Position numbers and translations under genes: made by a program. 64,000 bases of DNA from Solirubrobacterales bacterium (GTDB taxonomy: Bacteria; Actinomycetota; Thermoleophilia; Solirubrobacterales; JACPNS01), in assembly GCA_016185345.1 (NCBI GenBank), contig JACPNS010000022.1, forward strand, positions 62,001 to 126,000, read 5' to 3'. Numbering within the stretch: the stretch's first letter is position 1; the number at the start of each line of letters is the position of its first letter. Below, in pieces: positions 35,130-53,412 of this stretch. The notes beneath the pieces were generated by a model that was given only the letters and a program-made list of their open reading frames with translations, ran no database searches and was not told the origin of the DNA.

Positions 35130-38100
35130 ATGAGATTTCGCAGGTTCTTCGCCACTTCCGTGCTGGCGATGGGAATTGGCATGTCCATGGGGGCAGTGCC
35201 GGCGTCCGCAGCACCTTCATCCGACACTTTTGCGAGTGCCGGAGCGATCGATATCGCCGGGACCCGCGGGACCACGGCCTCAGATCTGGACACCGGAACA
35301 CGCGAAACCGGTGAGCCCACAGTGCCAGGTTCGAGCACCGCGTTCACCAAGTGGTGGCGGTACATACCTGCGAGCAACGGATTCGTGCGCTTCTCCACCT
35401 GCTCGCCGACTGGAATGAATCCGGTTCCGGGAATGTCGCTCGGTCTTTACACCGGCACCCAGGTCAACCTACTTACGACTGTCTCCCAGGCGACCAACAA
35501 CTGTCCGGCCGGCTACGAGAACGCCGTGCTTGGGCCAGTGGCGGTCACTGCGGGCACCTACTACTACCTGCAGATGGGCGGCGCCAGCACGATTCCGGTC
35601 GGCGAGGGCGACTTCAACCTCACGCTCGACTTCAACACCGCCGTTCCAGCCAACGACAACTGGGCCAGCGCGACTGTGATCAGCGGCGGCCTCCCGCAGA
35701 ACTTCTCCGCGAACAACGGACTTGCGACCGTCGAGGTGAATGAGCCTCGCTCGGATGCGAACAACGAGCGCCAAACGCTCTGGTATCGCTGGACGGCTAC
35801 GGCCAACGGCACCATCTCCGTGAACAACTGCAGCTCGGTCCCGGAATCGAATATGGACTCACGGATCAGCGTGTTCACCGGCTCATCGCCCGTGGTCGCC
35901 ACTGACATGTCATTCGTGGATGACAACGACAACGGCTGTACCGGGGCTGCATCAAACATGAGTCGCGTGTACGTGCCGGTGATCAACGGCACGAGCTACT
36001 GGATCAAGCTTTCGAACAATGGGAGCGTGAACTACGGCTTTCCGTACTCGCTTCAGCTCAAGTGGGTCACGACCCCCGAGAACGGCTTGGTTCCGTCGAT
36101 GTACCCGACACGCTTCAAGCCTGGGACGACCGTGAACGTCGACTTCGATGGAGCCTGGGGCGGCTTCCCCACCCCGACCTACGCACGCCAGTGGCGCCTC
36201 TGCGACGCGGCAGGGGCTTCCTGCGCGAACATCTCCGGCGCGACGGGCACGAGCTACACGCCGGTCGTCGGCGACATCGGCAAGACGCTCGTCCTACAGG
36301 TCACGGCAACCAACAGCAACGGTTCAACGAGCGCGTCGAGTGCGCCTTCCGAGGTGATCGACAACACGCCGGCCAACGACCTCTGGGCCAACCGCGTAAA
36401 TCTCGGCACTGGCTCGACGATCAGCTATTCGGACGACAACAACTGGGCGACCAACAGCGAGTCCGGCGAGCCGGCGATCGGCATATTCGCCGCGCGCAAC
36501 ACCGTCTGGTATCGCTGGACCCCGGCGACCAGCGGCGACTACGTGATCAACAACTGCCTGGGCGGACCGCCCGGCCTTGACTTTCTCGATCTGATGATCG
36601 GAATCCGCACCGGCACGACTTCGTTGGGCACGACAACCGAGGTTGGCTCGAAGGACGACGGTTGCGGCCCTTCGCATCCCTACCGCACATCGATGCTCTT
36701 CTCGGCGACCGCTGGCACGAACTACTCGATCGAGGTCGCGAGCAAGTCCGCGGGCATGACCGGCGCCTACACGCTTTCGATAGCGCCGGTCGGCGATCCC
36801 GTAGTGACGGTCCAGCCGTCCGTCACTGGAACCGCGGCGCCCGGCGGAAGGCTGAATCTTGACGTGGGCGACTGGATCAGTCCGAGCAACATCGTGCCCG
36901 AGATCCACTGGTTCGCATGCAATGCTTCCGGTCTCAGCTGCGTGGACACGGGCTTGTCCGGATCGGCCTTCGACGTTCAGGGATCTCACGCGGGTGGCAC
37001 GATCAAGGCGACGGTCACCCTGAGCAATCCGTACGGGACAGTAACGTCCTCCGCGCTCTCTGATGTGATCGCGCAGGACACGGACGGTGATGGAATTCTC
37101 GACGGCTCAGACACCTGCCCGAGCGTCGCGGGCACCAAGCCCAACGGCTGCCTACCCAGCGACATCGTCGGCACCGCGGTTCCGACGATCAGTGGGAACC
37201 TCGTGACGGGCCAGACATTGACTTCGAGCACCGGAACCTGGACCGTGAACAACGATCCGCTCGGCTACACGCTGGCCTACCAGTGGCAGCGCTGCAGTGA
37301 CGCGACACCGGGGAGTTGCTCGAACATCGGCGGTGCGACCAGCCCAACCTACGTGCTCGTGACCGGAGATCTTGCGAAGACGATCCGCGTGGCGGTGACC
37401 GCGACCAACGCAGATGACACTGCACAGCAATATTCCCTCAACAGCGGTTTTGTCACTGCGCCGCCTGCGCCGCCGGCCAACACGACGCCGCCTGCCGTGA
37501 GCGGAAACAAGGTGGTCGGCCAAACGCTTTCGACCACGAACGGCACCTGGACTCCGGCCGGGGTGAGCTTCACCTACGAGTGGCTGCGCTGCAACGACAC
37601 GACTATCGGCTCCTGCTTGGCGATCTCAAGCCAGACAGGCAACACCTACACGCTGGCAGCATCCGACCTTGGCAGGTACATCCGCTCGCGCGTCACCGGC
37701 GCAAACGTCTCCGGATCTCTGCCGATCGCCTCGGCCGCCACCGCGATCGTTCTCGGTGACGCTGACGGCGACGGCGTTCCCGACGTGAACGACGACTGCC
37801 CGACCGAGGCCGGTCCGCGAGCGAACGGCTGCCTGCCGAGCGACATCGTCGGTGCAGGCATCCCGACGATCGCAGGCCCGCCCACAGTCGGACAGACTTT
37901 GAACAGCAATGAAGGCAGCTGGACCGTGTTGCATGATCCGCTCGGATACACCGCGAGCTACCAGTGGCAGCGCTGCGAGGACGCGACTCCCGCGAGCTGT
38001 TCGAACATCGCCGGGGCGGCTTCCAACACGTACGTGTTGGTCGGCGCTGACTTCGGAAAGCGCGTGCGCGTGAACGTCACCGCGACGAACGCTGACGACA

Positions 38101-41100
38101 CCGCGATGCAGTCTTCGGCCATCTCCAATGTGATCTCTCAGATCCCGGGCAACACTGTTCTTCCTGTGGTTTCAGGCACGCCGCGCGTGACTGCAACTCT
38201 GAGCACGACACAAGGGACCTGGGTTCCCCTCGGTGTGCCACTGACCAACTCTTGGCTGCGCTGCAATGACAGCGTCTCGGTGGTTTCGTGCTCGTTGATC
38301 CCCAGTCAGACCGGTGCGACTTACACGTTGGTTCCCGCCGACAATGGCAAATACATTCGCTCACGCGTGACCGGCAGCAACGGCGCCGGCACAACGGAGG
38401 CCGAATCGCCGCCGAGCGCGATCGTGATAACTGACGGCGATGCCGATGGTGTACCCGACGGATCCGACATCTGCCCCGCCCAGGCAGGGACGAAGCCGAA
38501 CGGCTGCCTGCCGAGCGACATCGTTGGCACCGCTGCTCCGACGCTGAGCGGCACGCTGACCGTCGGTCAGACGATTGCTTCGGGCCCGGGCTCCTGGAAC
38601 GTTCTCAACGATCCGCTCGGCTACTCGCTCGGCTATCAGTGGCAGCGCTGTGACGACGCAACAACCGCCAGCTGCTCAAACATCTCGCTGGCGACCGGCG
38701 GCACCTACGTACTGACCGCCGCTGACTACGGCAAGCGCGTGCGAGTGATCGTCACCGCGTCCAACGCCGACGACATGGCTGTCCAGTCCTCGGCGATCTC
38801 CAACGTCGTTTCACAGGTTCCCGCCAACATTGGCGCGCCGACCGTGACCGGCTCGGCCATCGTGGGGCAGGTTCTCACGGCCAGTCAGGGAACGTGGACG
38901 CCCGGCGATGCGGCACTCACGAACGCCTGGCTACGCTGCAACGACACGACCATCGGATCGTGCTCTGTGATCGCAGGTCAGACCGGAACGACCTACACGC
39001 TCGTTGCGGCAGACGACGGCAAGTACATCCGTATCCGCGTGACCGGCACGACTTCCGCGAGCAGCGTGGATGCGAACTCGGTGTCGACGGCCCAGGTGAT
39101 CACGGTTCTGGATGGCGATGGGGATGGCAACCCGGACTCGACCGACGTGTGTCCCACGGAAGCGAGCGCAAGACCGAACGGCTGCCCACTGTCCGACATC
39201 GTCGGCAACGGAATACCCACCGTCAGCGGCACACTGAAGGTCAGCAACACCGTCAGCTCCACGACCGGAAGCTGGACGGTCCTCTACGACCCGCTCGGCT
39301 ACACGCTCACGTATCAATGGCAGCGCTGCGACACCGCTTCAACAGCAAGCTGCACGAACATCACCGGCGCAACGGCCAGCACACGCGCGCTCGTCGCTGC
39401 CGACTACGGCAAGAGGGTGCGTGTGAACGTGACCGCCACCAACGCGCACGACACCGAAACGCAGGCTTCTGCGATCTCAAGTGTGATCTCTCAAGTACCC
39501 ACCAACTCGGTGCTGCCTTTGGTCACTGGAACCACGCGCGTAGGCAACGCCCTGAACGGCAGCACAGGAACCTGGACCCCGGCCGACGCGTCATTCGCCC
39601 GCCAGTGGCTCCGCTGCACAACAACTTCGATCGGATCGTGCTCGCCGATCGGCAGCGCGACGAGCGCCAGCTACACACTGGTTGCCGCCGACAGCGCCAA
39701 CTACATCCGTCTTCAGGTCAGCGGCACCGCCGGGACAGACACAGTCGCGGTCACTTCAGCGGCCACCGCTCAGGTGTTCACCGACAGCGACAACGACGGC
39801 GTCGTTGATGCTTCGGATGCCTGCCCGGCCGAAGCCGGCACCAAGCCCAACGGCTGCTTGCCCAGCGACATCGTTGGCGCTGGCATCCCGACGATCAGCG
39901 GCGTCCTTGCGACCGGGCAGACGATCAGTTCGACGCCCGGCAGCTGGAACGTCCTGAACGATCAGCTCGGGTACACCCTCAGCTACCAGTGGCAACGCTG
40001 TGACGACGCAACAACCGCCAGCTGCTCAAACGTCTCGCTGGCGACCGGCGGCACCTACGTACTGACCGCCGCTGACTACGGCAAGCGCGTTCGCCTCAAC
40101 GTGACCGCCAGCAACGCCGACGACACCGCGATCCAGTCTTCAGCGATTTCCGGACTCGTCTCGCAAGTGCCGCTCAATGGTGCGCTGCCGACCATCTTGG
40201 GAACCGCACGCGTCGGTCAGACGCTGACCGGAGTGCAGGGCAGTTGGACTCCTGCGGACGCCACGCTCGCAAACCTCTGGCTGCGCTGCACAACAACTTC
40301 GGTCGCTTCCTGCTCGCCGATCGCAGGCCAGACTGGGAATACCTACACGCTGGTCGCAGCCGACGACGGCCAGTACATCCGCATCAGGGTGACCGCGACG
40401 ACAATCGCTGGCTCGGTCCTGGCGAACTCAAATCAGACCAGCCAGATCGTGACCGACAACGACAACGACGGCGTCGTAGACGGCTCCGACGCGTGCCTCG
40501 GCGAAACCGGCACCAAGCCCAACGGCTGCTTGCCGAGTGACATCGTTGGCGCCGGCGTGCCGACGATCAGCGGCGACCTTGTCGTTGGTCAGACGATGAG
40601 TTCGACCAATGGAACTTGGAACGTCCTGTATGACCAACTCAGCTATACGCTGACCCGTCAGTGGCAGCGCTGCGACGACGCGACCGCAGGGAGCTGCTCG
40701 AACATCGGCGGCGCAACCGCAGCCACCTACGCGCTGACCGCGAGCGACCTCGGCAAGCGCGTACGTGTGGTCGTCACTGCGACAAACGCAGATGACACCG
40801 CGAGCCAGTCCTCAACGATCAGCTCAGCCGTAATCGCGGCGAACTCGCCGCCCGTCAACAACGTCGCCCCAGCGATCAGCGGTACGGCCGAGGTCGGCAA
40901 GAGCCTGACGGCCGAGGGCACGAGCGACGACTGGACACCCGCTAGCGCCACCCTCGCCTACGCCTGGTTGCGCTGCACCGACAACGCGAGCGAAGCCAGC
41001 TGCTCGGCGATCGGATCGGCCGCCACTTCAACCTACGCACTCGTTGCGGCAGATTCCGACAACTACATTCGGGTTCGTGTGACGGCAACCGCCAATGCGC

Positions 41101-41546
41101 TCACAACCGAGATCGTCTCGGCCGCCAGCGCGAAGATCGCCACCCCGACAATCGTCGCCCCGCCGCCAGCCACGCCGCCGCCGGTCGGCCCGAACCCGGC
41201 GACGATCAGCGGCCCCACAAGCCTGAAGTCCCTCAAGCCGAGCAGGACCGGCGTGGTCACGTTCTCGAAAGTCTCGGTCTACTGCGGATCGAAGTCAACC
41301 GGAAGCTGCACGGGCACCGCTGTCCTGACCGGAAAGATCGGCGGCAAGGCAAAGACTCTCGGCACACTCAAGCTCTCGAATCTGAAAGGTGGCGGTCGCA
41401 TCATCGCCATGAAGCTGAGCAGGGCCGCGCAGAAGGTTTTGAAGAAGAAGCCGATCAAGGCGCAGCTCGCGATCACCTACACCGCGCCCGGCTTCACCCC
41501 GCTCAACTATACGGGCAAAGTCACGCTAAAAAAGCCCAAGAAATAG
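35130..41546 (+). CDS. Giant secreted repeat protein with TSP3-like and Ig-like modules
   Basis: The protein has 2138 residues with a signal peptide (MRFRRFFATSVLAMGIGMSM, then GAVPASA). The first 660 residues hold sandwich domains with LWYRWT and VWYRWT strands, related to the 564-residue protein. From about residue 650 come six repeats of 224-227 residues. Each holds a thrombospondin-3-like calcium loop (DTDGDGILDGSDTCP form), the phrase NGCLPSDIVG, and two Ig-like modules with QWQRC...C and WLRC...C cysteine pairs. The end is a Lys-rich domain with GSCTGT. No LPXTG or membrane anchor is present. It is probably an extracellular adhesin or wall protein; the ligand is unknown. There is no clear Shine-Dalgarno sequence. 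Confidence 0.85.
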   Translation: MRFRRFFATSVLAMGIGMSMGAVPASAAPSSDTFASAGAIDIAGTRGTTASDLDTGTRETGEPTVPGSSTAFTKWWRYIPASNGFVRFSTCSPTGMNPVPGMSLGLYTGTQVNLLTTVSQATNNCPAGYENAVLGPVAVTAGTYYYLQMGGASTIPVGEGDFNLTLDFNTAVPANDNWASATVISGGLPQNFSANNGLATVEVNEPRSDANNERQTLWYRWTATANGTISVNNCSSVPESNMDSRISVFTGSSPVVATDMSFVDDNDNGCTGAASNMSRVYVPVINGTSYWIKLSNNGSVNYGFPYSLQLKWVTTPENGLVPSMYPTRFKPGTTVNVDFDGAWGGFPTPTYARQWRLCDAAGASCANISGATGTSYTPVVGDIGKTLVLQVTATNSNGSTSASSAPSEVIDNTPANDLWANRVNLGTGSTISYSDDNNWATNSESGEPAIGIFAARNTVWYRWTPATSGDYVINNCLGGPPGLDFLDLMIGIRTGTTSLGTTTEVGSKDDGCGPSHPYRTSMLFSATAGTNYSIEVASKSAGMTGAYTLSIAPVGDPVVTVQPSVTGTAAPGGRLNLDVGDWISPSNIVPEIHWFACNASGLSCVDTGLSGSAFDVQGSHAGGTIKATVTLSNPYGTVTSSALSDVIAQDTDGDGILDGSDTCPSVAGTKPNGCLPSDIVGTAVPTISGNLVTGQTLTSSTGTWTVNNDPLGYTLAYQWQRCSDATPGSCSNIGGATSPTYVLVTGDLAKTIRVAVTATNADDTAQQYSLNSGFVTAPPAPPANTTPPAVSGNKVVGQTLSTTNGTWTPAGVSFTYEWLRCNDTTIGSCLAISSQTGNTYTLAASDLGRYIRSRVTGANVSGSLPIASAATAIVLGDADGDGVPDVNDDCPTEAGPRANGCLPSDIVGAGIPTIAGPPTVGQTLNSNEGSWTVLHDPLGYTASYQWQRCEDATPASCSNIAGAASNTYVLVGADFGKRVRVNVTATNADDTAMQSSAISNVISQIPGNTVLPVVSGTPRVTATLSTTQGTWVPLGVPLTNSWLRCNDSVSVVSCSLIPSQTGATYTLVPADNGKYIRSRVTGSNGAGTTEAESPPSAIVITDGDADGVPDGSDICPAQAGTKPNGCLPSDIVGTAAPTLSGTLTVGQTIASGPGSWNVLNDPLGYSLGYQWQRCDDATTASCSNISLATGGTYVLTAADYGKRVRVIVTASNADDMAVQSSAISNVVSQVPANIGAPTVTGSAIVGQVLTASQGTWTPGDAALTNAWLRCNDTTIGSCSVIAGQTGTTYTLVAADDGKYIRIRVTGTTSASSVDANSVSTAQVITVLDGDGDGNPDSTDVCPTEASARPNGCPLSDIVGNGIPTVSGTLKVSNTVSSTTGSWTVLYDPLGYTLTYQWQRCDTASTASCTNITGATASTRALVAADYGKRVRVNVTATNAHDTETQASAISSVISQVPTNSVLPLVTGTTRVGNALNGSTGTWTPADASFARQWLRCTTTSIGSCSPIGSATSASYTLVAADSANYIRLQVSGTAGTDTVAVTSAATAQVFTDSDNDGVVDASDACPAEAGTKPNGCLPSDIVGAGIPTISGVLATGQTISSTPGSWNVLNDQLGYTLSYQWQRCDDATTASCSNVSLATGGTYVLTAADYGKRVRLNVTASNADDTAIQSSAISGLVSQVPLNGALPTILGTARVGQTLTGVQGSWTPADATLANLWLRCTTTSVASCSPIAGQTGNTYTLVAADDGQYIRIRVTATTIAGSVLANSNQTSQIVTDNDNDGVVDGSDACLGETGTKPNGCLPSDIVGAGVPTISGDLVVGQTMSSTNGTWNVLYDQLSYTLTRQWQRCDDATAGSCSNIGGATAATYALTASDLGKRVRVVVTATNADDTASQSSTISSAVIAANSPPVNNVAPAISGTAEVGKSLTAEGTSDDWTPASATLAYAWLRCTDNASEASCSAIGSAATSTYALVAADSDNYIRVRVTATANALTTEIVSAASAKIATPTIVAPPPATPPPVGPNPATISGPTSLKSLKPSRTGVVTFSKVSVYCGSKSTGSCTGTAVLTGKIGGKAKTLGTLKLSNLKGGGRIIAMKLSRAAQKVLKKKPIKAQLAITYTAPGFTPLNYTGKVTLKKPKK
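37080..41150 (+). repeat. Six tandem coding repeats of about 675 bp
   Basis: The GGCTGC of NGCLPSDIVG recurs at 37146, 37827, 38502, 39180, 39852 and 40524, giving spacings of 681, 675, 678, 672 and 672 bp. The 90-bp stretches 38651-38740 and 40001-40090 differ at one base, although the units are otherwise diverged, indicating recent exchange between repeats 3 and 5. Confidence 0.9.
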
Positions 41547-47786: not shown

Positions 47787-48998
47787 TTAGGCAGAGAGAT
47801 CGACTGTGACGGGATCGGCCATCAGCCTCCCCTTCAGCGTGAGTACCGCTCGGCCCTCGGCGTGATCGGCACGTTCGAGCATCCCAGCCTTCAAGTTCTG
47901 CTCGGCGGCGGCGCGGCCCTCATCGGTCAGCACATCCAGCGGGACGCCGCCGCGCAACCGCAGCCCAAGCATCACGGCCTCGAGCCGTTGCGCTTCCTCA
48001 TTCGGGGACTCACGTGCGGCCGCCGGCGAGATCCCGTTTTTCGCCTTCTCGCTCCAGGCGCGCGGGTGCAGCACGTTCCACCACCTGACGCCGCCGACGT
48101 GACTGTGCGCGCCGGGGCCGACTCCCCACCAGTTGCCGCCCGACCAGTAGCCGAGGTTGTGGCTACAGTAGGCGTCAGGGCCGGTCGCCCAGCTGCAGGT
48201 TTCGTACCAATCCATGCCGGCCTCTGTGAGTACGCGCTCTGCAGTTTCAAAACGATCGACGATCACTTCCTCGCCGGGCACGATGAGCTCACCGCGCTCG
48301 ACCTGGCCCGCCATCCGAGTGCCGGGTTCCACGATCAGCGAGTACGTACTGATGTGATCGGGCTCGGCCGCGAGCGCGGCCTGAACGCTCGCGAGCCAGT
48401 CGTCGGCGGTCTCGCCGGGAGTGCCGTAAATCAGATCGAGACTGACCTGCTCGAATCCAGCGGCGCGCGCCTCCTTCACCGCCTCCTCGGGGCGGCCGGG
48501 CGTGTGGACGCGGTCAAGCGTCTTCAAAACCGAGGGGACGGCCGACTGCATCCCGAGCGACACGCGTGTGAAACCGGCCTCGCGGAGCGCTTCGAATTTG
48601 GCCGGATCGACCGACTCCGGATTGGCCTCGGTCGTGACCTCTGCGCCGTTTCGCAATCCGAAGCGCTGGCGCACCGCGCCCAGCAGTCTGGCGAGATCTT
48701 CGGCCAGGAGGATCGTCGGAGTGCCGCCGCCGATGAACACGGTGTCAACGCTTGGGGCGTGGTCGCCGAGGACGCGCTGCGCGAGGTCGAGCTCGGCGAT
48801 CGCCGCATCCATGTAGCCTGATTGCGCGGAGCCGTCCTCGCCCGGGACGTAGGTGTTGAAATCGCAGTACCCGCATCTCGTCGAGCAGAACGGCACATGC
48901 AGATAAATGCCGAAGGGGTGGGCTTTCAGCCCCGTCAGCGCCTTGGCTGGCAGCGCGCCGTCGCGCGGCGCCGCGTCTCCTTCGGGCAGTCGAGCCAT
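47787..48998 (-). CDS. hemW: HemW-like radical SAM protein
   Basis: The protein has 403 residues from ATG 48998 (MARLPEGDAAPRDGALPAKA); longer frames upstream run antisense to the nucleotidyltransferase gene. The radical SAM cluster is C38, C42 and C45 (CSTRCGYCDF), and FIGGGTPTIL and the C-terminal HemW domain follow. HemW proteins bind haem and are thought to hand it to haem proteins; older names call it oxygen-independent coproporphyrinogen oxidase. Confidence 0.93.
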   Translation of the reverse strand: MARLPEGDAAPRDGALPAKALTGLKAHPFGIYLHVPFCSTRCGYCDFNTYVPGEDGSAQSGYMDAAIAELDLAQRVLGDHAPSVDTVFIGGGTPTILLAEDLARLLGAVRQRFGLRNGAEVTTEANPESVDPAKFEALREAGFTRVSLGMQSAVPSVLKTLDRVHTPGRPEEAVKEARAAGFEQVSLDLIYGTPGETADDWLASVQAALAAEPDHISTYSLIVEPGTRMAGQVERGELIVPGEEVIVDRFETAERVLTEAGMDWYETCSWATGPDAYCSHNLGYWSGGNWWGVGPGAHSHVGGVRWWNVLHPRAWSEKAKNGISPAAARESPNEEAQRLEAVMLGLRLRGGVPLDVLTDEGRAAAEQNLKAGMLERADHAEGRAVLTLKGRLMADPVTVDLSA

Positions 48999-49039: not shown

Positions 49040-50695
49040 CTAAGACGCGCTGATGGTCAGCTCGCCGAGGCCGATGCCAATCTCTCGCAGGTCCGGAGCG
49101 AGACCGAGCTCGGCCGGAACTCCAGTCTTGTCGACTACGAAATCGATTTCGATCCCGCGTTTGCCTGCCAGCGCCTCGGCCGGGATCGGAATCGTCGTCG
49201 AAGTGGTCGGGTGCTCTAGGTCCAGCGTCAGGTGGGCGAGCCTGAATTCGTTGACGACCACGTCGACTACGACCTCCGGATGGCTCTCGGCGAGCGGCGC
49301 TCGAATACCGAAGGCAAGGGTCGCGCCGCCCTCGAGCGGACATCCCAGTCCCAGTCGGACGCGCGAGATCTCCCCACGCGACCAGACGCCGAAGTCCTCG
49401 GGAAACCACCATCCGTTGACCAGGAACTCGCCGCGCGCCTGCTCGCCGCCAAGCCTGATCTCGCTGCCCAGCTCATAGCGCGGCCAGCTTTCCGCGTCGG
49501 CCCCGGGGCCAGAGGAACGGCCGACGAGCGCGCGCAGCTTGCGCCGCGTTCGCCACGGGCGCCCAGCTGCGACAAACGCCAGTTCTCCCGCCAGCTCGCG
49601 CCGCCGGCCGAGCCCCTGCCTGCGCACAAAAAAGTCAGCGAAATCACCGACACCGGTTTTCGCGCCGAGTGGCGCACGGTCGGCGATTTCCATTTCGTAG
49701 TCCTCGATCACGCGGGCCAACTTTCCCGCGACCGCGGGCGTTCCATCTTCGGCTGGCTTTCGGCGCCTGCGGGCACGCACCGCAAGCGGAACCGGACACG
49801 CGGCGAGCGCCCGGCGCGTCTCGGCAGGAAGCTCGACCTCCGCGACGTCCGCGAGGTATTCAAAGGCCTCAAGCATCTGGTGCGCCAGCCGCCAGTCGCG
49901 CCCGCGCGAGGCGAAGAGCCCCCAATCGATCTCCTGCTCATGGCCGCGCACAAGCAACACGCAGTCGCCGACCCAGCGCTCGCGGATGTCGCGCCAGGGA
50001 TCGGCAGCGTGTGCGATCGTGACCGCAAGCAGATCGGCGCGGCCGAGCGCGCGGCATTCGGCGCCCGCGATCGTGCACGGAACTGCATGTTCGCTCAGCC
50101 TCGCGGCGAGTTCGGGCCGCCGCATCGAATGCAAGGCGCTCCAATGCAGATCGATCGACACTCCCTCCCCGCGCGAGAACTCTTCGCCATGCTTCATCGT
50201 GATCAGCCGCGGCTCACCCTTTCGCAGGCCGGCCGCGTCGCGCGCCTTGAAACCGCGATCAATCAGCAGCCCGGCTGCTTCAGAAATTTTGTCGGGACTG
50301 ACGAGCACGTCCACGTCGAACATCGGCCGCAGTCGAGCCGGAACGCCGTGCCCGTAGACCAGCGCCCCACCCTTCATCAGCACCGGATCGCAGCCCGCCT
50401 CGCGCAGGTCACCGATCGACGGCGCGATCATCCGCGCGTGCGACTCGGTGCGAAGCCAGGTCACGCGAGAGACGTTGGTGATCTGCGCGGCGAGCTGCTC
50501 ACCGATCGGAAGCGGGTCGGGCCGAGCGGTGAGCATCGGCAGCAACTGGACTGATCCGAAATCAAGCGTGTCGAGATCGACGGCGTCGGCCCACGCCTCG
50601 GCTGCTCGCTCGGCGACTTCGCGATCGGGATGCAGCGCGGCACGCAGAAGATTGTCCTGCAGCGCCGGCGGCCGCATCAGCGGTGCGCGCCTCAA
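49040..50695 (-). CDS. Nucleotidyltransferase family protein (NTP_transf_5-like)
   Basis: The protein has 551 residues. The start TTG overlaps the glycosyltransferase stop (TTGA), with GAGG 7 nt upstream. DPVLMKGGALVYGHGVPARL and RPMFDVDVLV give the [KG]G...DxDxxV signature of the uncharacterised nucleotidyltransferase family often found with PqqD- and HPr-kinase-like genes, including some lasso peptide clusters. The C-terminal 200 residues form a separate, apparently beta-rich domain. It ends the five-gene operon. The substrate is unknown. Confidence 0.8.
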   Translation of the reverse strand: MRRAPLMRPPALQDNLLRAALHPDREVAERAAEAWADAVDLDTLDFGSVQLLPMLTARPDPLPIGEQLAAQITNVSRVTWLRTESHARMIAPSIGDLREAGCDPVLMKGGALVYGHGVPARLRPMFDVDVLVSPDKISEAAGLLIDRGFKARDAAGLRKGEPRLITMKHGEEFSRGEGVSIDLHWSALHSMRRPELAARLSEHAVPCTIAGAECRALGRADLLAVTIAHAADPWRDIRERWVGDCVLLVRGHEQEIDWGLFASRGRDWRLAHQMLEAFEYLADVAEVELPAETRRALAACPVPLAVRARRRRKPAEDGTPAVAGKLARVIEDYEMEIADRAPLGAKTGVGDFADFFVRRQGLGRRRELAGELAFVAAGRPWRTRRKLRALVGRSSGPGADAESWPRYELGSEIRLGGEQARGEFLVNGWWFPEDFGVWSRGEISRVRLGLGCPLEGGATLAFGIRAPLAESHPEVVVDVVVNEFRLAHLTLDLEHPTTSTTIPIPAEALAGKRGIEIDFVVDKTGVPAELGLAPDLREIGIGLGELTISAS

Positions 50696-51342
50696 CCGTC
50701 GGCCTCACGTCTGGCATGGATTGCGGCGCGCGCCGACAGCACGTACTGCCGCCGAATCTCATCGCGATCGACGATCGTCAAGTTCGCTCCATGGATGCGG
50801 CGCTCGAGCACGATGTGGTTGACCTCCGGCACGGGACCGAGGCGCTGCATGAAGCGAAAGAGATCATGAATCCCGTCCGTTTCTTCGAGTCCGCCGAGTT
50901 CTTCGAAGACCGAACGACGCACGAGCATTGCCATCGGACTTCCGTGCACGGGCTCTTTGGAAATCGCGAAGCGTGCCGCGAGTTCTTCCTCACGTCCCGG
51001 GTCGTAGAACTCGCGGACAAGCCCCTGGCAAGCGCTCGCCCCGCCGATCGCGTCAAGCAGCACCTGATTGCGATCGGGGGTATGTCGATCGTCACCGTCG
51101 AGAAAAGAGATGAACTCTGTGTCGATGAGACGTGCGCCGATATTGCGCGCGATCGCCGGGCCCTCACCCGGTCCGAACACCACCTCGACGTCGCGCTCGC
51201 GAGCAACGTCACCGGTGCCGTCAGTCGAGCCGTTGTCCACGACGACGATCTGCGAGGCCGGCAGAGTCTGCGCGAGAATCGAGTCGATCGCCTCGCCGAT
51301 GTACTGCGCCTGGTTGCGCACCGCGATCACGACGCCGATCAT
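50692..51342 (-). CDS. Family 2 glycosyltransferase (216 aa)
   Basis: This is a short GT-A fold enzyme with MIGVVIAVRNQAQYIGEAID at the start, VVVDNGSTDGTGDVA, and the DxD-type FLDGDD motif. It has no membrane segment. Its start and stop each overlap a neighbour by 4 bp. It probably transfers a sugar from an NDP donor to the product handled by this operon. Confidence 0.88.
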   Translation of the reverse strand: MIGVVIAVRNQAQYIGEAIDSILAQTLPASQIVVVDNGSTDGTGDVARERDVEVVFGPGEGPAIARNIGARLIDTEFISFLDGDDRHTPDRNQVLLDAIGGASACQGLVREFYDPGREEELAARFAISKEPVHGSPMAMLVRRSVFEELGGLEETDGIHDLFRFMQRLGPVPEVNHIVLERRIHGANLTIVDRDEIRRQYVLSARAAIHARREADG

Positions 51343-52004
51343 GCTTCGTGGCTCCCGATCTTGCCGCGGCGCTCGAGCGAATCCTTCAGGCGGTGAACGA
51401 TCGCCGGCCGATTGACCGCGCGGTCGCGGGTCAGCGATCCCGGTCTCATTCGATAGTTAAAGGCGACCTGGTCAACGTGCACCGCCCTCAGCCCCGCCTC
51501 CTTCATGCGCATCACCCAGTCAACGTCCTCGCCGTGAACGATCGATTCGTCGAGCTCGCCGACGCAATCGATCACCGTGCGCGTGACGAAGATGCTCGGA
51601 ATCGACACCGCGTGGGTCGGGTCTGAAAAGGGGTTCGGGGGATTGCCCATCAGCACCTGGACGCGCGCGAACGCGACGTCGGCGCCGTCCTCGATCGCGA
51701 CGCGGCGCTCGTCGGGCGAACCGGCGACCCAGATGTCGTCGGCATCGAGAAAGCCGATGATCGAGCCGCTCGCCGCCCGCATGCCGGCGTTGCGCGCAGC
51801 TGAAGGTCCGGCGTTGGCCTGCCGAATCAGCGTGATCGGGCCGGGCATCGATTCGACAATCTCCGCGCTGCGGTCGGCCGAGCCGTCATCTACAACGATC
51901 AGCTCGAGCAGGCGGTCGGCGTTCTCAACGACGCTGCGGACCGCGTCCTCAACCCACTGCTCGCAGTTGAACACCGGCATGATCACCGAAAGGTTGTTGC
52001 TCAT
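51339..52004 (-). CDS. Family 2 glycosyltransferase (221 aa)
   Basis: The GT2 core is evident: MSNNLSVIMPVFNCEQWVED, VVDDGSADRSAEIV, RNAGMRAASG and FLDADD, with the acceptor-side EDVDW near residue 165. It is soluble. It overlaps the kinase gene upstream and the second GT2 gene downstream by 4 bp each, so all are coupled. Confidence 0.9.
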   Translation of the reverse strand: MSNNLSVIMPVFNCEQWVEDAVRSVVENADRLLELIVVDDGSADRSAEIVESMPGPITLIRQANAGPSAARNAGMRAASGSIIGFLDADDIWVAGSPDERRVAIEDGADVAFARVQVLMGNPPNPFSDPTHAVSIPSIFVTRTVIDCVGELDESIVHGEDVDWVMRMKEAGLRAVHVDQVAFNYRMRPGSLTRDRAVNRPAIVHRLKDSLERRGKIGSHEA

Positions 52005-53005
52005 GCCGCGCTCCTGACCGCACCGAGTTCGCCGATCACGTCGGGGATCCGCTCGAGGTCAGGGCCGACTTCAAGCGTGTAGGCGGGGAGCCGTTCGAGC
52101 AGCTCGCGCAGTGCCGCGAGCGAGCGCTGCATCGCGCCGGTCATCACAGTCATGCTGCCGCCCGTGAGCCGGCGAAGCGCCTCGGCGGGAGCGAGCGGCG
52201 TGGCCGCGCCCGTGCGCGCTGCAAGCTCGGGCAAGACGATTGCGCGCACTTCTTGCGAGCGCGTGATCCGCGAGCGCAGGTCCATTCGGTGCTTGCCACG
52301 CCAGTCGCGACCGGCCGCTTCGCCAAAGTCCGCGAGGTCGGGGAGCAGCTCGAGCGCCGCGTCGGTCACCTTGATGCACGAGTAGACGCCGTGCGCGACG
52401 GGCCGCTCGCCCAGGGAGACAACGCTGAAGTCGTCGGATGTGAAGTCAAGCCCGGCCAGCGCGCAGTTCAGCGAAGTCGTGGACTTCCCCGCCCCGCCCG
52501 GTCCGCCGATCAGCACGCCACCGGCGGTCGCGAGGTGCAGCATGTGAGCACCATTCGCGCCCATCGACCAGCGCAGAAGATTGCGCAGCGGCGCGCCGCC
52601 CTCGCCCGGCGCCACCTGCCCGCCATCGCGAAACCACTGCACCCCTGCGGCGGCATCCTCGTCGTAGTAGGCAAGCGTCGCGTGCTCAATGTCGTAGACG
52701 GCGAGCTGCGGCGGATCGGTGAACCCCGGGATTTCCTGGCGCGGTCCCTTGAAGCTCTGCGCCGGCCAGGGCGGTTTGGGCGGCATGACCCCAGAGGACG
52801 CGCTCTCGAACGCAAAGATCCGCGCGGCGGGATCGGGGGCCGAATCCTCGCAGGCGAGCAGGCCGCGCTTCAGCGTCGCGATCACATCTTCGCCGATCAA
52901 TTCGACCCGCACACGGAGATCACCGGCCGCGACATCGATCGCCTCCCCGGGGACGCGCTCGCGCGCAGTCTCAGCAGCAGCGACGAAGTCCGCTACCGAC
53001 GTCAC
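52001..53005 (-). CDS. HPr kinase-related P-loop kinase
   Basis: The protein has 334 residues if GTG 53005 is the start; this overlaps the PqqD-like stop (GTGA), matching the 4-bp overlaps elsewhere in the operon. TTG 53026 is an alternative. The Walker A motif GGPGGAGKSTTS is near 167-178, followed by D191-D192 (TSDDFSVV), as in HPr kinase-like proteins. Homologues in lasso peptide clusters phosphorylate the precursor C-terminus. The target here is unknown; no PTS genes are in view. Confidence 0.82.
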   Translation of the reverse strand: MTSVADFVAAAETARERVPGEAIDVAAGDLRVRVELIGEDVIATLKRGLLACEDSAPDPAARIFAFESASSGVMPPKPPWPAQSFKGPRQEIPGFTDPPQLAVYDIEHATLAYYDEDAAAGVQWFRDGGQVAPGEGGAPLRNLLRWSMGANGAHMLHLATAGGVLIGGPGGAGKSTTSLNCALAGLDFTSDDFSVVSLGERPVAHGVYSCIKVTDAALELLPDLADFGEAAGRDWRGKHRMDLRSRITRSQEVRAIVLPELAARTGAATPLAPAEALRRLTGGSMTVMTGAMQRSLAALRELLERLPAYTLEVGPDLERIPDVIGELGAVRSAA

Positions 53006-53412
53006 GCGGCTGGCGCCACCGGCCAACCATCGGCGTCGAGGTCGATGTCGTGGATCGGGTCGAGCATGAGCAGTTCCTGCATGTCTGTGAACTTCTCGAT
53101 CGTCGGGTCGCCGCCAACTTCGGCGCGCTGCTCGGCCGGCCCGGCGTCCACCCCGCCCGAGACCAGCAGGCCCTCTGCCTTGAACTGCGCGACGAACGCC
53201 TCGATCGACTCCTCGGTCGCGTCACTGCTTGCAAGCAGCGAGCGCGCGCTGCGGCCGTCGGCACAGAGATTCCAGAGCACGGTGGCCGCCGGGCTGAGCG
53301 CGTAGTAGCAACCGTTGTCGAGGTTTACAAGCACGGCCTCGCCGTCGAAGGTCTCGTCGATGACGTCTGGGCGATTGGGACGAAGCGGCGCGTCCATGAT
53401 GCTGCTTTCCAT
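53002..53412 (-). CDS. PqqD-like (RiPP recognition element) protein
   Basis: The protein has 136 residues; the first ATG is 53412 and a second in-frame ATG lies 15 bp later. The PqqD fold pattern is clear: RPNRPDVIDETFDGEAVLVN, LDNGCYYALSPAATVLWNL, EAFVAQFKAEGLLV. Such proteins bind peptide leaders in RiPP pathways. The tail of about 40 residues after the domain is acidic. It opens the five-gene operon, 22 bp after the ABC-F stop. Confidence 0.85.
   Translation of the reverse strand: MESSIMDAPLRPNRPDVIDETFDGEAVLVNLDNGCYYALSPAATVLWNLCADGRSARSLLASSDATEESIEAFVAQFKAEGLLVSGGVDAGPAEQRAEVGGDPTIEKFTDMQELLMLDPIHDIDLDADGWPVAPAA

Follow-up and report, generated by a model that had tools for sequence, protein, structure and literature searches.

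A gene cassette that joins a PqqD-family protein with a leader-like tail to an HprK-like kinase, GT2 glycosyltransferases and an NTP_transf_5 protein

Comparison with described systems

In the pseudomycoidin pathway, PsmK phosphorylates a terminal Ser and PsmN, a protein of the NTP_transf_5 (NTP5) type, puts hexoses onto the phosphate; the same review also considers a nucleotidyltransferase role possible (PMC9266682). A linear peptide is the substrate of the kinase LppK, whose system includes a discrete RRE, the recognition element of ribosomally synthesized and post-translationally modified peptides (RiPPs) (PMC13381572). Here we describe an operon from a Solirubrobacterales bacterium (Actinomycetota; assembly GCA_016185345.1) that encodes a PqqD-family RRE protein, an HprK-like kinase, two GT2 glycosyltransferases and an NTP5 protein. 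It lies on a stretch of 64,000 nucleotides of contig JACPNS010000022.1 (positions 62,001 to 126,000), referred to below as the window. We conclude with high confidence that the operon represents a gene cassette which is widespread, though patchy in its distribution, and whose architecture is conserved at the level of a family. Both the gene set and a leader-like tail of the RRE protein are conserved; a separate precursor is not found nearby, and the catalytic motifs of the kinase, nucleotidyltransferase and GT2 enzymes are intact.

The cassette shares with the linear polyphosphorylated peptide (LPP) systems (PMC13381572, Nat Commun 2026) a discrete RRE, an HprK-like kinase, an NTP transferase, the lack of a cyclase and a recognition motif of the [Y/W]xxPx[L/V] type. 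LPP loci are often rich in glycosyltransferases, and some relatives of our operon have an MsbA-like exporter. In LPP clusters, which are described as restricted to Bacillota, the precursor is encoded separately and a protease resembling SpI signal peptidase is present; in the cassette the leader-like peptide forms one protein with the RRE, the GT2s are core members, the operon has no protease and many phyla are represented. No separate precursor bearing the LPP motif YxxPxVLxHQxIxFETxxS was found near the loci, and the tail motif differs from it. An SpI signal-peptidase-like peptidase is absent from the operon (a genome-wide search for the family was not made), and an S26-type protein occurs in the radical-SAM type loci described below.

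The tailoring enzymes of pseudomycoidin and paeninodin (PsmK-PsmN, PadeK; PMC9266682) have in common with the operon the kinase residues His-Lys-Asp-Asp and an NTP_transf_5 partner, which in that case adds hexoses to phosphoserine. The link to paeninodin-type tailoring drawn when the operon was first noted is supported. Unlike paeninodin-type lasso clusters, the cassette has no B2, cyclase (C) or precursor gene and carries dedicated GT2s instead. A separate precursor with a C-terminal Ser, a paeninodin trait, was sought on contig C22 of the source genome, and no short leader-like open reading frame (ORF) was found near the operon. The lasso RRE proteins TbiB1 (5V1U/5V1V), PbaB1 (9X90) and TfuB1/FusB1 (6JX3) share the RRE fold, the groove residues of the Pro/Leu pocket and the leader motif; there the leader is a separate peptide, whereas here it forms the C-terminus of the RRE protein.

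The HPr-rel-A system (NCBIfam TIGR04352, TIGR04353) likewise combines an HprK-related kinase with a PqqD-family chaperone, but the window kinase matches TIGR04352 (HprK_rel_A) only weakly (1.3e-4; 21 bits against a cut-off of 200 bits). The window PqqD protein has no match to TIGR04353, and weak matches occur in 6 of 67 members. Fusions of an RRE to GT2 (PF00535) in PMC12710340 and PMC7470986 also link RREs to glycosyltransferases; the passages concerned mention them as domain fusions only, without the present gene set or tail. The Caulobacter hvyA operon was considered as a parallel and dropped, its description mentioning neither PqqD nor HPr. The cassette lacks some defining features of paeninodin-type lasso, LPP and HPr-rel-A systems, yet works like them in part, and it stands close to LPP and pseudomycoidin tailoring. 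No description of the gene set was found in the open-access papers searched (subscription papers lay outside the search), and the cassette is apparently undescribed so far.

The leader-like tail and the family of loci

The PqqD proteins of the cassette end in a tail with the consensus [FY]xxPxLxK[YF]TDMQ[DE]LLxLDP[IV]H[ED]V..GWP, which resembles lasso leader peptides, as can be seen by comparing a lasso precursor, YDAPTLVRYGDLDELT (L085), with a tail, YEAPILERYTDMQEYL (L011). The tail is conserved in 70 of 72 distinct loci (first gene calls had given the motif in 74 loci), and in all six loci of the window type in the class of the source organism it follows a variable linker and is more conserved than the PqqD domain. 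A position matrix built solely from 10 lasso leaders, with shuffles as reference, replaced a leader hidden Markov model that was too weak for E-values; for 66 of the 72 tails its best window falls in register. Matrix scores separate the tails from the C-termini of other proteins (Mann-Whitney 6e-41, on rows that are not independent). The position of Thr109 is Thr or Ser in 97% of members; Asp, Asn or Glu stands there in three.

A scan for stand-alone precursors gave three weak matches in 76 tail loci, none of them near the window operon, and was positive in 12 of 17 control lasso loci; in the source genome it covered contig C22. Clustering revealed no recurrent family of short ORFs in the tail loci, whereas nine control lasso loci fell into one cluster. 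The original prediction had described the operon as lacking a RiPP core. This holds in that stand-alone precursor, cyclase and B2 genes are absent, but two things had been overlooked: the leader-like peptide that the PqqD protein carries as its C-terminus and the conserved arrangement of the cassette.

An AlphaFold2 (AF2) model of the window PqqD protein, made with 67 relatives as input, has a mean predicted local distance difference test score (pLDDT) of 86.9, with ~91 for tail residues 101-110. The tail is ordered as a strand (105-108) and a helix (111-115). By sequence, the closest solved relatives of the protein are TbiB1, PbaB1 (9x90) and TfuB1; the best fold matches of the model in the PDB are 5v1v, 5v1u and 6jx3, the TbiB1-leader and TfuB1-leader complexes. 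Thr109 begins a helix in the model, a placement similar to that of HPr residue Ser46, which stands where helix B starts.

Groove residues were compared in the PbaB1 numbering of PMC13381572. Most of those that serve the leader Pro and Leu are kept, but pocket 1 is partly deleted in the window copy. Pocket 2, which takes the leader Leu (Y39, L41, F83, L87, L92), is conserved in the family and reads Y, L, F, F, L in the window. The pocket-1 residue Y69 is missing in three members including the window, all of which lack an aromatic first tail residue (p 0.0007), and a tail Tyr or Trp accompanies Asp or Glu at the residue contacting the aromatic (p 0.002); both associations are post hoc, having been picked after the data were viewed. 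When mutual information between RRE and tail columns was scanned without bias, the pockets were not enriched (p 0.8), a result that counts against the reading with a recognition peptide in cis. We regard binding of the tail to the RRE leader groove, in cis or in trans between copies, as likely and no more, because the association tests were post hoc and the blind scan showed no pocket enrichment.

NTP5 proteins score above the cut-off in 94 of 299 genomes of the class, where PqqD, HprK and NTP5 genes are repeatedly found together. The 46 loci mapped there have three main arrangements: lasso clusters (A: Asn synthase, B2, PqqD, HprK, NTP5, ABC), radical-SAM clusters with an S26-type peptidase and an MsbA-like ABC protein (B), and the window type (C: PqqD, HprK, two or three GT2, NTP5). 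Six radical-SAM type loci (L065, L067, L068, L069, L070, L071), with two radical SAM proteins, PqqD, an HprK-like kinase, the S26-type peptidase, NTP5 and the MsbA-like ABC protein, resemble LPP clusters but have radical SAM enzymes and lie outside Bacillota. One PqqD protein (L012:6071-6478) with a divergent tail, YTPPALTSYSDMEDLLTSDPPLPAAYTPRP, is encoded beside ABC, HprK and NTP5 genes and may be an intermediate between the lasso and tail types. Two lasso-type precursors (L072:11726-11908 and L095:13998-14180) have long C-termini containing Cys and His (KFGEYSCGS..., KFCEYSCPS...), which is unusual for lasso cores.

One genome per species was scanned with a PqqD alignment, neighbouring genes being no part of the query. 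The 71 loci recovered in this way span 12 or more phyla: Thermodesulfobacteriota, Bacteroidota, Cyanobacteriota, Chloroflexota, Nitrospirota, Planctomycetota, Verrucomicrobiota, Ignavibacteriota, Gemmatimonadota, Acidobacteriota, Pseudomonadota and Actinomycetota. Within 8 kb, the 72 distinct loci have HprK in 62, NTP5 in 59, GT2 in 65 (at least two in 56) and all three in 52, several of the misses being contig ends; an MsbA-like ABC gene lies within the same distance in 24. HprK-GT2 fusions occur in 15 of the 72. The gene set is also borne by a plasmid of Crinalium epipsammum. Within any one group the tail is rare (8 of 299 genomes of the class, 6 of 396 of the phylum). Large GT2 arrays, including a triple-GT2 protein and HprK-GT2-GT2 fusions of 730-855 amino acids, were seen in L098, L115, L130, L131, L141 and L166.

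The kinase of the window has no Pfam match. It keeps the catalytic His, the Walker-A Lys and the Asp-Asp pair in an alignment of 42 relatives. Kinases from the tail cassettes form one clade (support 99/91), apart in this sample from the lasso and radical-SAM types, and the window kinase has a long branch. The kinase profile was rebuilt because its first version drew in GT2 proteins through HprK-GT2 fusions. Assignments to FomB and to HPr(Ser) kinase gave weak matches and were not adopted.

Operon layout and genomic setting

Coordinates and Pfam matches confirm the predicted five-gene operon (Table 1), with all five ORFs on the minus strand at 49040-53412. A 4-bp overlap, originally predicted for every junction, is present at three (PqqD/HprK GTGA, HprK/GT2 ATGA, GT2/GT2 ATGA); the GT2/NTP5 junction has one (TTGA) only if NTP5 starts at TTG, the ATG lying 18 nt further in. 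The NTP5 protein retains the conserved KG, R, DxD and H in the alignment, and its nucleotidyltransferase-like core (residues 1-300) is modelled by AF2 at a pLDDT of ~93. The fold of its C-terminal sandwich matches, with low confidence and on the basis of the model, CBM36, CBM35, CBM6 and BcsB.

Table 1. Features of the operon in window coordinates.
Feature	Position (strand)	Remarks
PqqD-family RRE protein	53002..53412 (-)	136 amino acids; RRE domain residues ~14-88, variable linker, leader-like C-terminal tail; PF05402 3.5e-7 (above cut-off)
Leader-like tail of the PqqD protein	53020..53115 (-)	Residues 100-131; GGDPTIEKFTDMQELLMLDPIHDIDLDADGWP; Thr109 codon 53086-53088
HprK-like kinase	52001..53005 (-)	GTG start at 53005; longer ORF from TTG at 53026
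First GT2 glycosyltransferase	51339..52004 (-)	GT-A type; DAD motif (D87-A-D89); PF00535 1.2e-26
Second GT2 glycosyltransferase	50692..51342 (-)	GT-A type; DGD motif (D82-G-D84); PF00535 3.6e-25
NTP_transf_5 protein	49040..50695 (-)	Start TTG at 50695 or ATG at 50677; PF14907 1.1e-28
C-terminal beta-sandwich of the NTP5 protein, possibly carbohydrate-binding-module-like (low confidence)	49046..49369 (-)	AF2 strands 437-544, pLDDT ~50-75

The source genome (2.43 Mb, 22 contigs, 96.7% complete) encodes one PqqD and one NTP5 protein. Transglut_core3/B2 (PF13471), the Asn_synthase cyclase domain (PF00733) and HPr (PF00381), the substrate of HPr kinase/phosphorylase, are absent across the whole of it. 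In a search of a contig collection (genome_contigs), the kinase alone as query gave no match; four genomes of the same genus lack the kinase. In the congener G004 the block from rplA to the ABC-F gene is syntenic, and other genes replace the stretch with HemW and the cassette. Because the congeners lack the kinase and synteny with G004 breaks there, we consider the cassette an accessory block. Its GC content is 67% against 63%; GC at third codon positions resembles the rest of the genome, so composition was not taken as evidence of transfer, which rests on the absence from congeners and the G004 synteny.

The HemW gene downstream of the cassette (47787-48998) has no match at E 1e-60 in the four congeners and therefore seems part of the same variable block. 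In L059, L060 and L061, too, HprK and PqqD genes have a HemW gene next to them, there on the opposite strand; L059 additionally has a B2-like Transglut_core3 protein, a DUF2079 membrane protein and NTP5, and no Asn synthase was seen there. Elsewhere in the window (35169-41546), a predicted protein of 2125 amino acids matches AIR9-type Ig and thrombospondin type 3 repeats and is probably a surface protein.

Proposed function and alternatives

We give about even chances to the reading that the operon is a RiPP-derived, RRE-guided phosphorylation and glycosylation cassette with its recognition peptide in cis. The tail is predicted to lie as a beta-strand in the leader groove of its own RRE, as a lasso leader does on B1, and to present the conserved TDMQ..DPIHEVD.GWP segment. 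The HprK-like kinase would phosphorylate a hydroxyl on the RRE-bound peptide or on a partner; the phosphate would then receive a hexose, or less probably a nucleotide, from NTP5, which would act like PsmN of pseudomycoidin; extension of the sugar chain would fall to the GT2 enzymes; and the MsbA-like transporter found in one third of relatives may export the product. Such a phosphate-linked chain is proposed because of the analogy with PsmK/PsmN and LppK. The absence of an HPr gene was counted in favour of this reading. The original prediction had envisaged a phosphorylated or nucleotidylated, then glycosylated product. Since PsmK phosphorylates and PsmN adds hexoses to the phosphate, the phosphorylation route has a direct precedent (PMC9266682); nucleotidylation did not gain such support. 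The idea of RiPP-type parts reused with glycosyltransferases, with neither cyclase nor B2 protease nor stand-alone precursor, is borne out. Taken as a whole, the original prediction is supported in part.

The most economical acceptor would be the tail itself, with Thr109 as the candidate site and the RRE protein as a self-presenting glycan carrier. That Thr109 is phosphorylated by the kinase, sugar-capped by NTP5 and then extended by the GT2s seems to us rather doubtful; if true, the RRE carrier would be a peptide-borne counterpart of lipid-carrier glycan assembly in more than 10 phyla.

Several points weigh against an RRE-guided cassette with its peptide in cis. Single tails match lasso leaders at a shuffle P of ~0.01 only, and the tails are homologous to one another. 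The window copy is atypical, its RRE lacking the pocket-1 stretch and its tail having Gly where others have Phe or Tyr. The AF2 model is a monomer, so that the tail might instead bind in trans to a second copy. Thr109 could merely be a helix N-cap, given the Asp, Asn or Glu of three members. The window operon contains no exporter or protease.

It is possible, though on balance unlikely, that the tail serves for docking or self-blocking while a glycan, a lipid carrier or a small molecule is the actual substrate, the RRE protein scaffolding the kinase, nucleotidyltransferase and GT2s in a surface-glycan system made from RiPP parts. Relatives of the cassette often adjoin genes for NAD-sugar epimerases, SDR proteins, GT4 and sulfotransferases, the C-terminus of the window NTP5 resembles a carbohydrate-binding module, and the stretch that follows the leader part stays conserved from phylum to phylum, which a typical RiPP core does not. 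Thr109 is compatible with an N-cap, but its restriction to Thr or Ser is stricter than an N-cap requires, and the known pairs of HprK-like and NTP5 proteins with a discrete RRE modify peptides (PMC9266682, PMC13381572).

An LPP-like or lasso-like RiPP pathway with its precursor encoded elsewhere in the genome is improbable. RRE, HprK and NTP5 are common to LPP and paeninodin-type clusters (PMC13381572), and the precursor scan of the source genome was confined to contig C22; against this, no short ORF recurs near ~70 relatives although control loci do yield one, the source genome lacks Transglut_core3 and Asn_synthase, and a leader-like sequence is already present in cis. Still more improbable is that the window holds a decaying, inactive cassette with an altered RRE groove, to which the deleted pocket-1 stretch, the lost aromatic tail residue, the long kinase branch and the absence from four congeners would point; the five frames are open and tightly coupled, catalytic motifs are retained, and the losses on both sides of the predicted contact look compensatory. 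Chance neighbours, or a housekeeping operon with the same-strand ABC-F gene (ending 22 bp before PqqD) and HemW (starting ~40 bp after NTP5), are hardly credible: G004 retains ABC-F in place without the cassette, which recurs without either gene in at least 12 phyla, and although housekeeping genes do adjoin it, as does a map/ribosomal operon in L010, the neighbours change while the cassette stays.

The operon is more interesting than first noted, because the peptide thought to be missing now has a candidate. The family suggests that RRE-guided pathways include a class, spread over many phyla, whose recognition protein itself contains the leader-like sequence, and mining tools that seek a small precursor gene would therefore miss it. 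Many genes of glycan loci that now carry separate annotations as PqqD, HPr kinase or 'nucleotidyltransferase family' could find their explanation in the cassette. It is also relevant to a question raised since pseudomycoidin, whether NTP_transf_5 proteins act as glycosyltransferases on phosphate.

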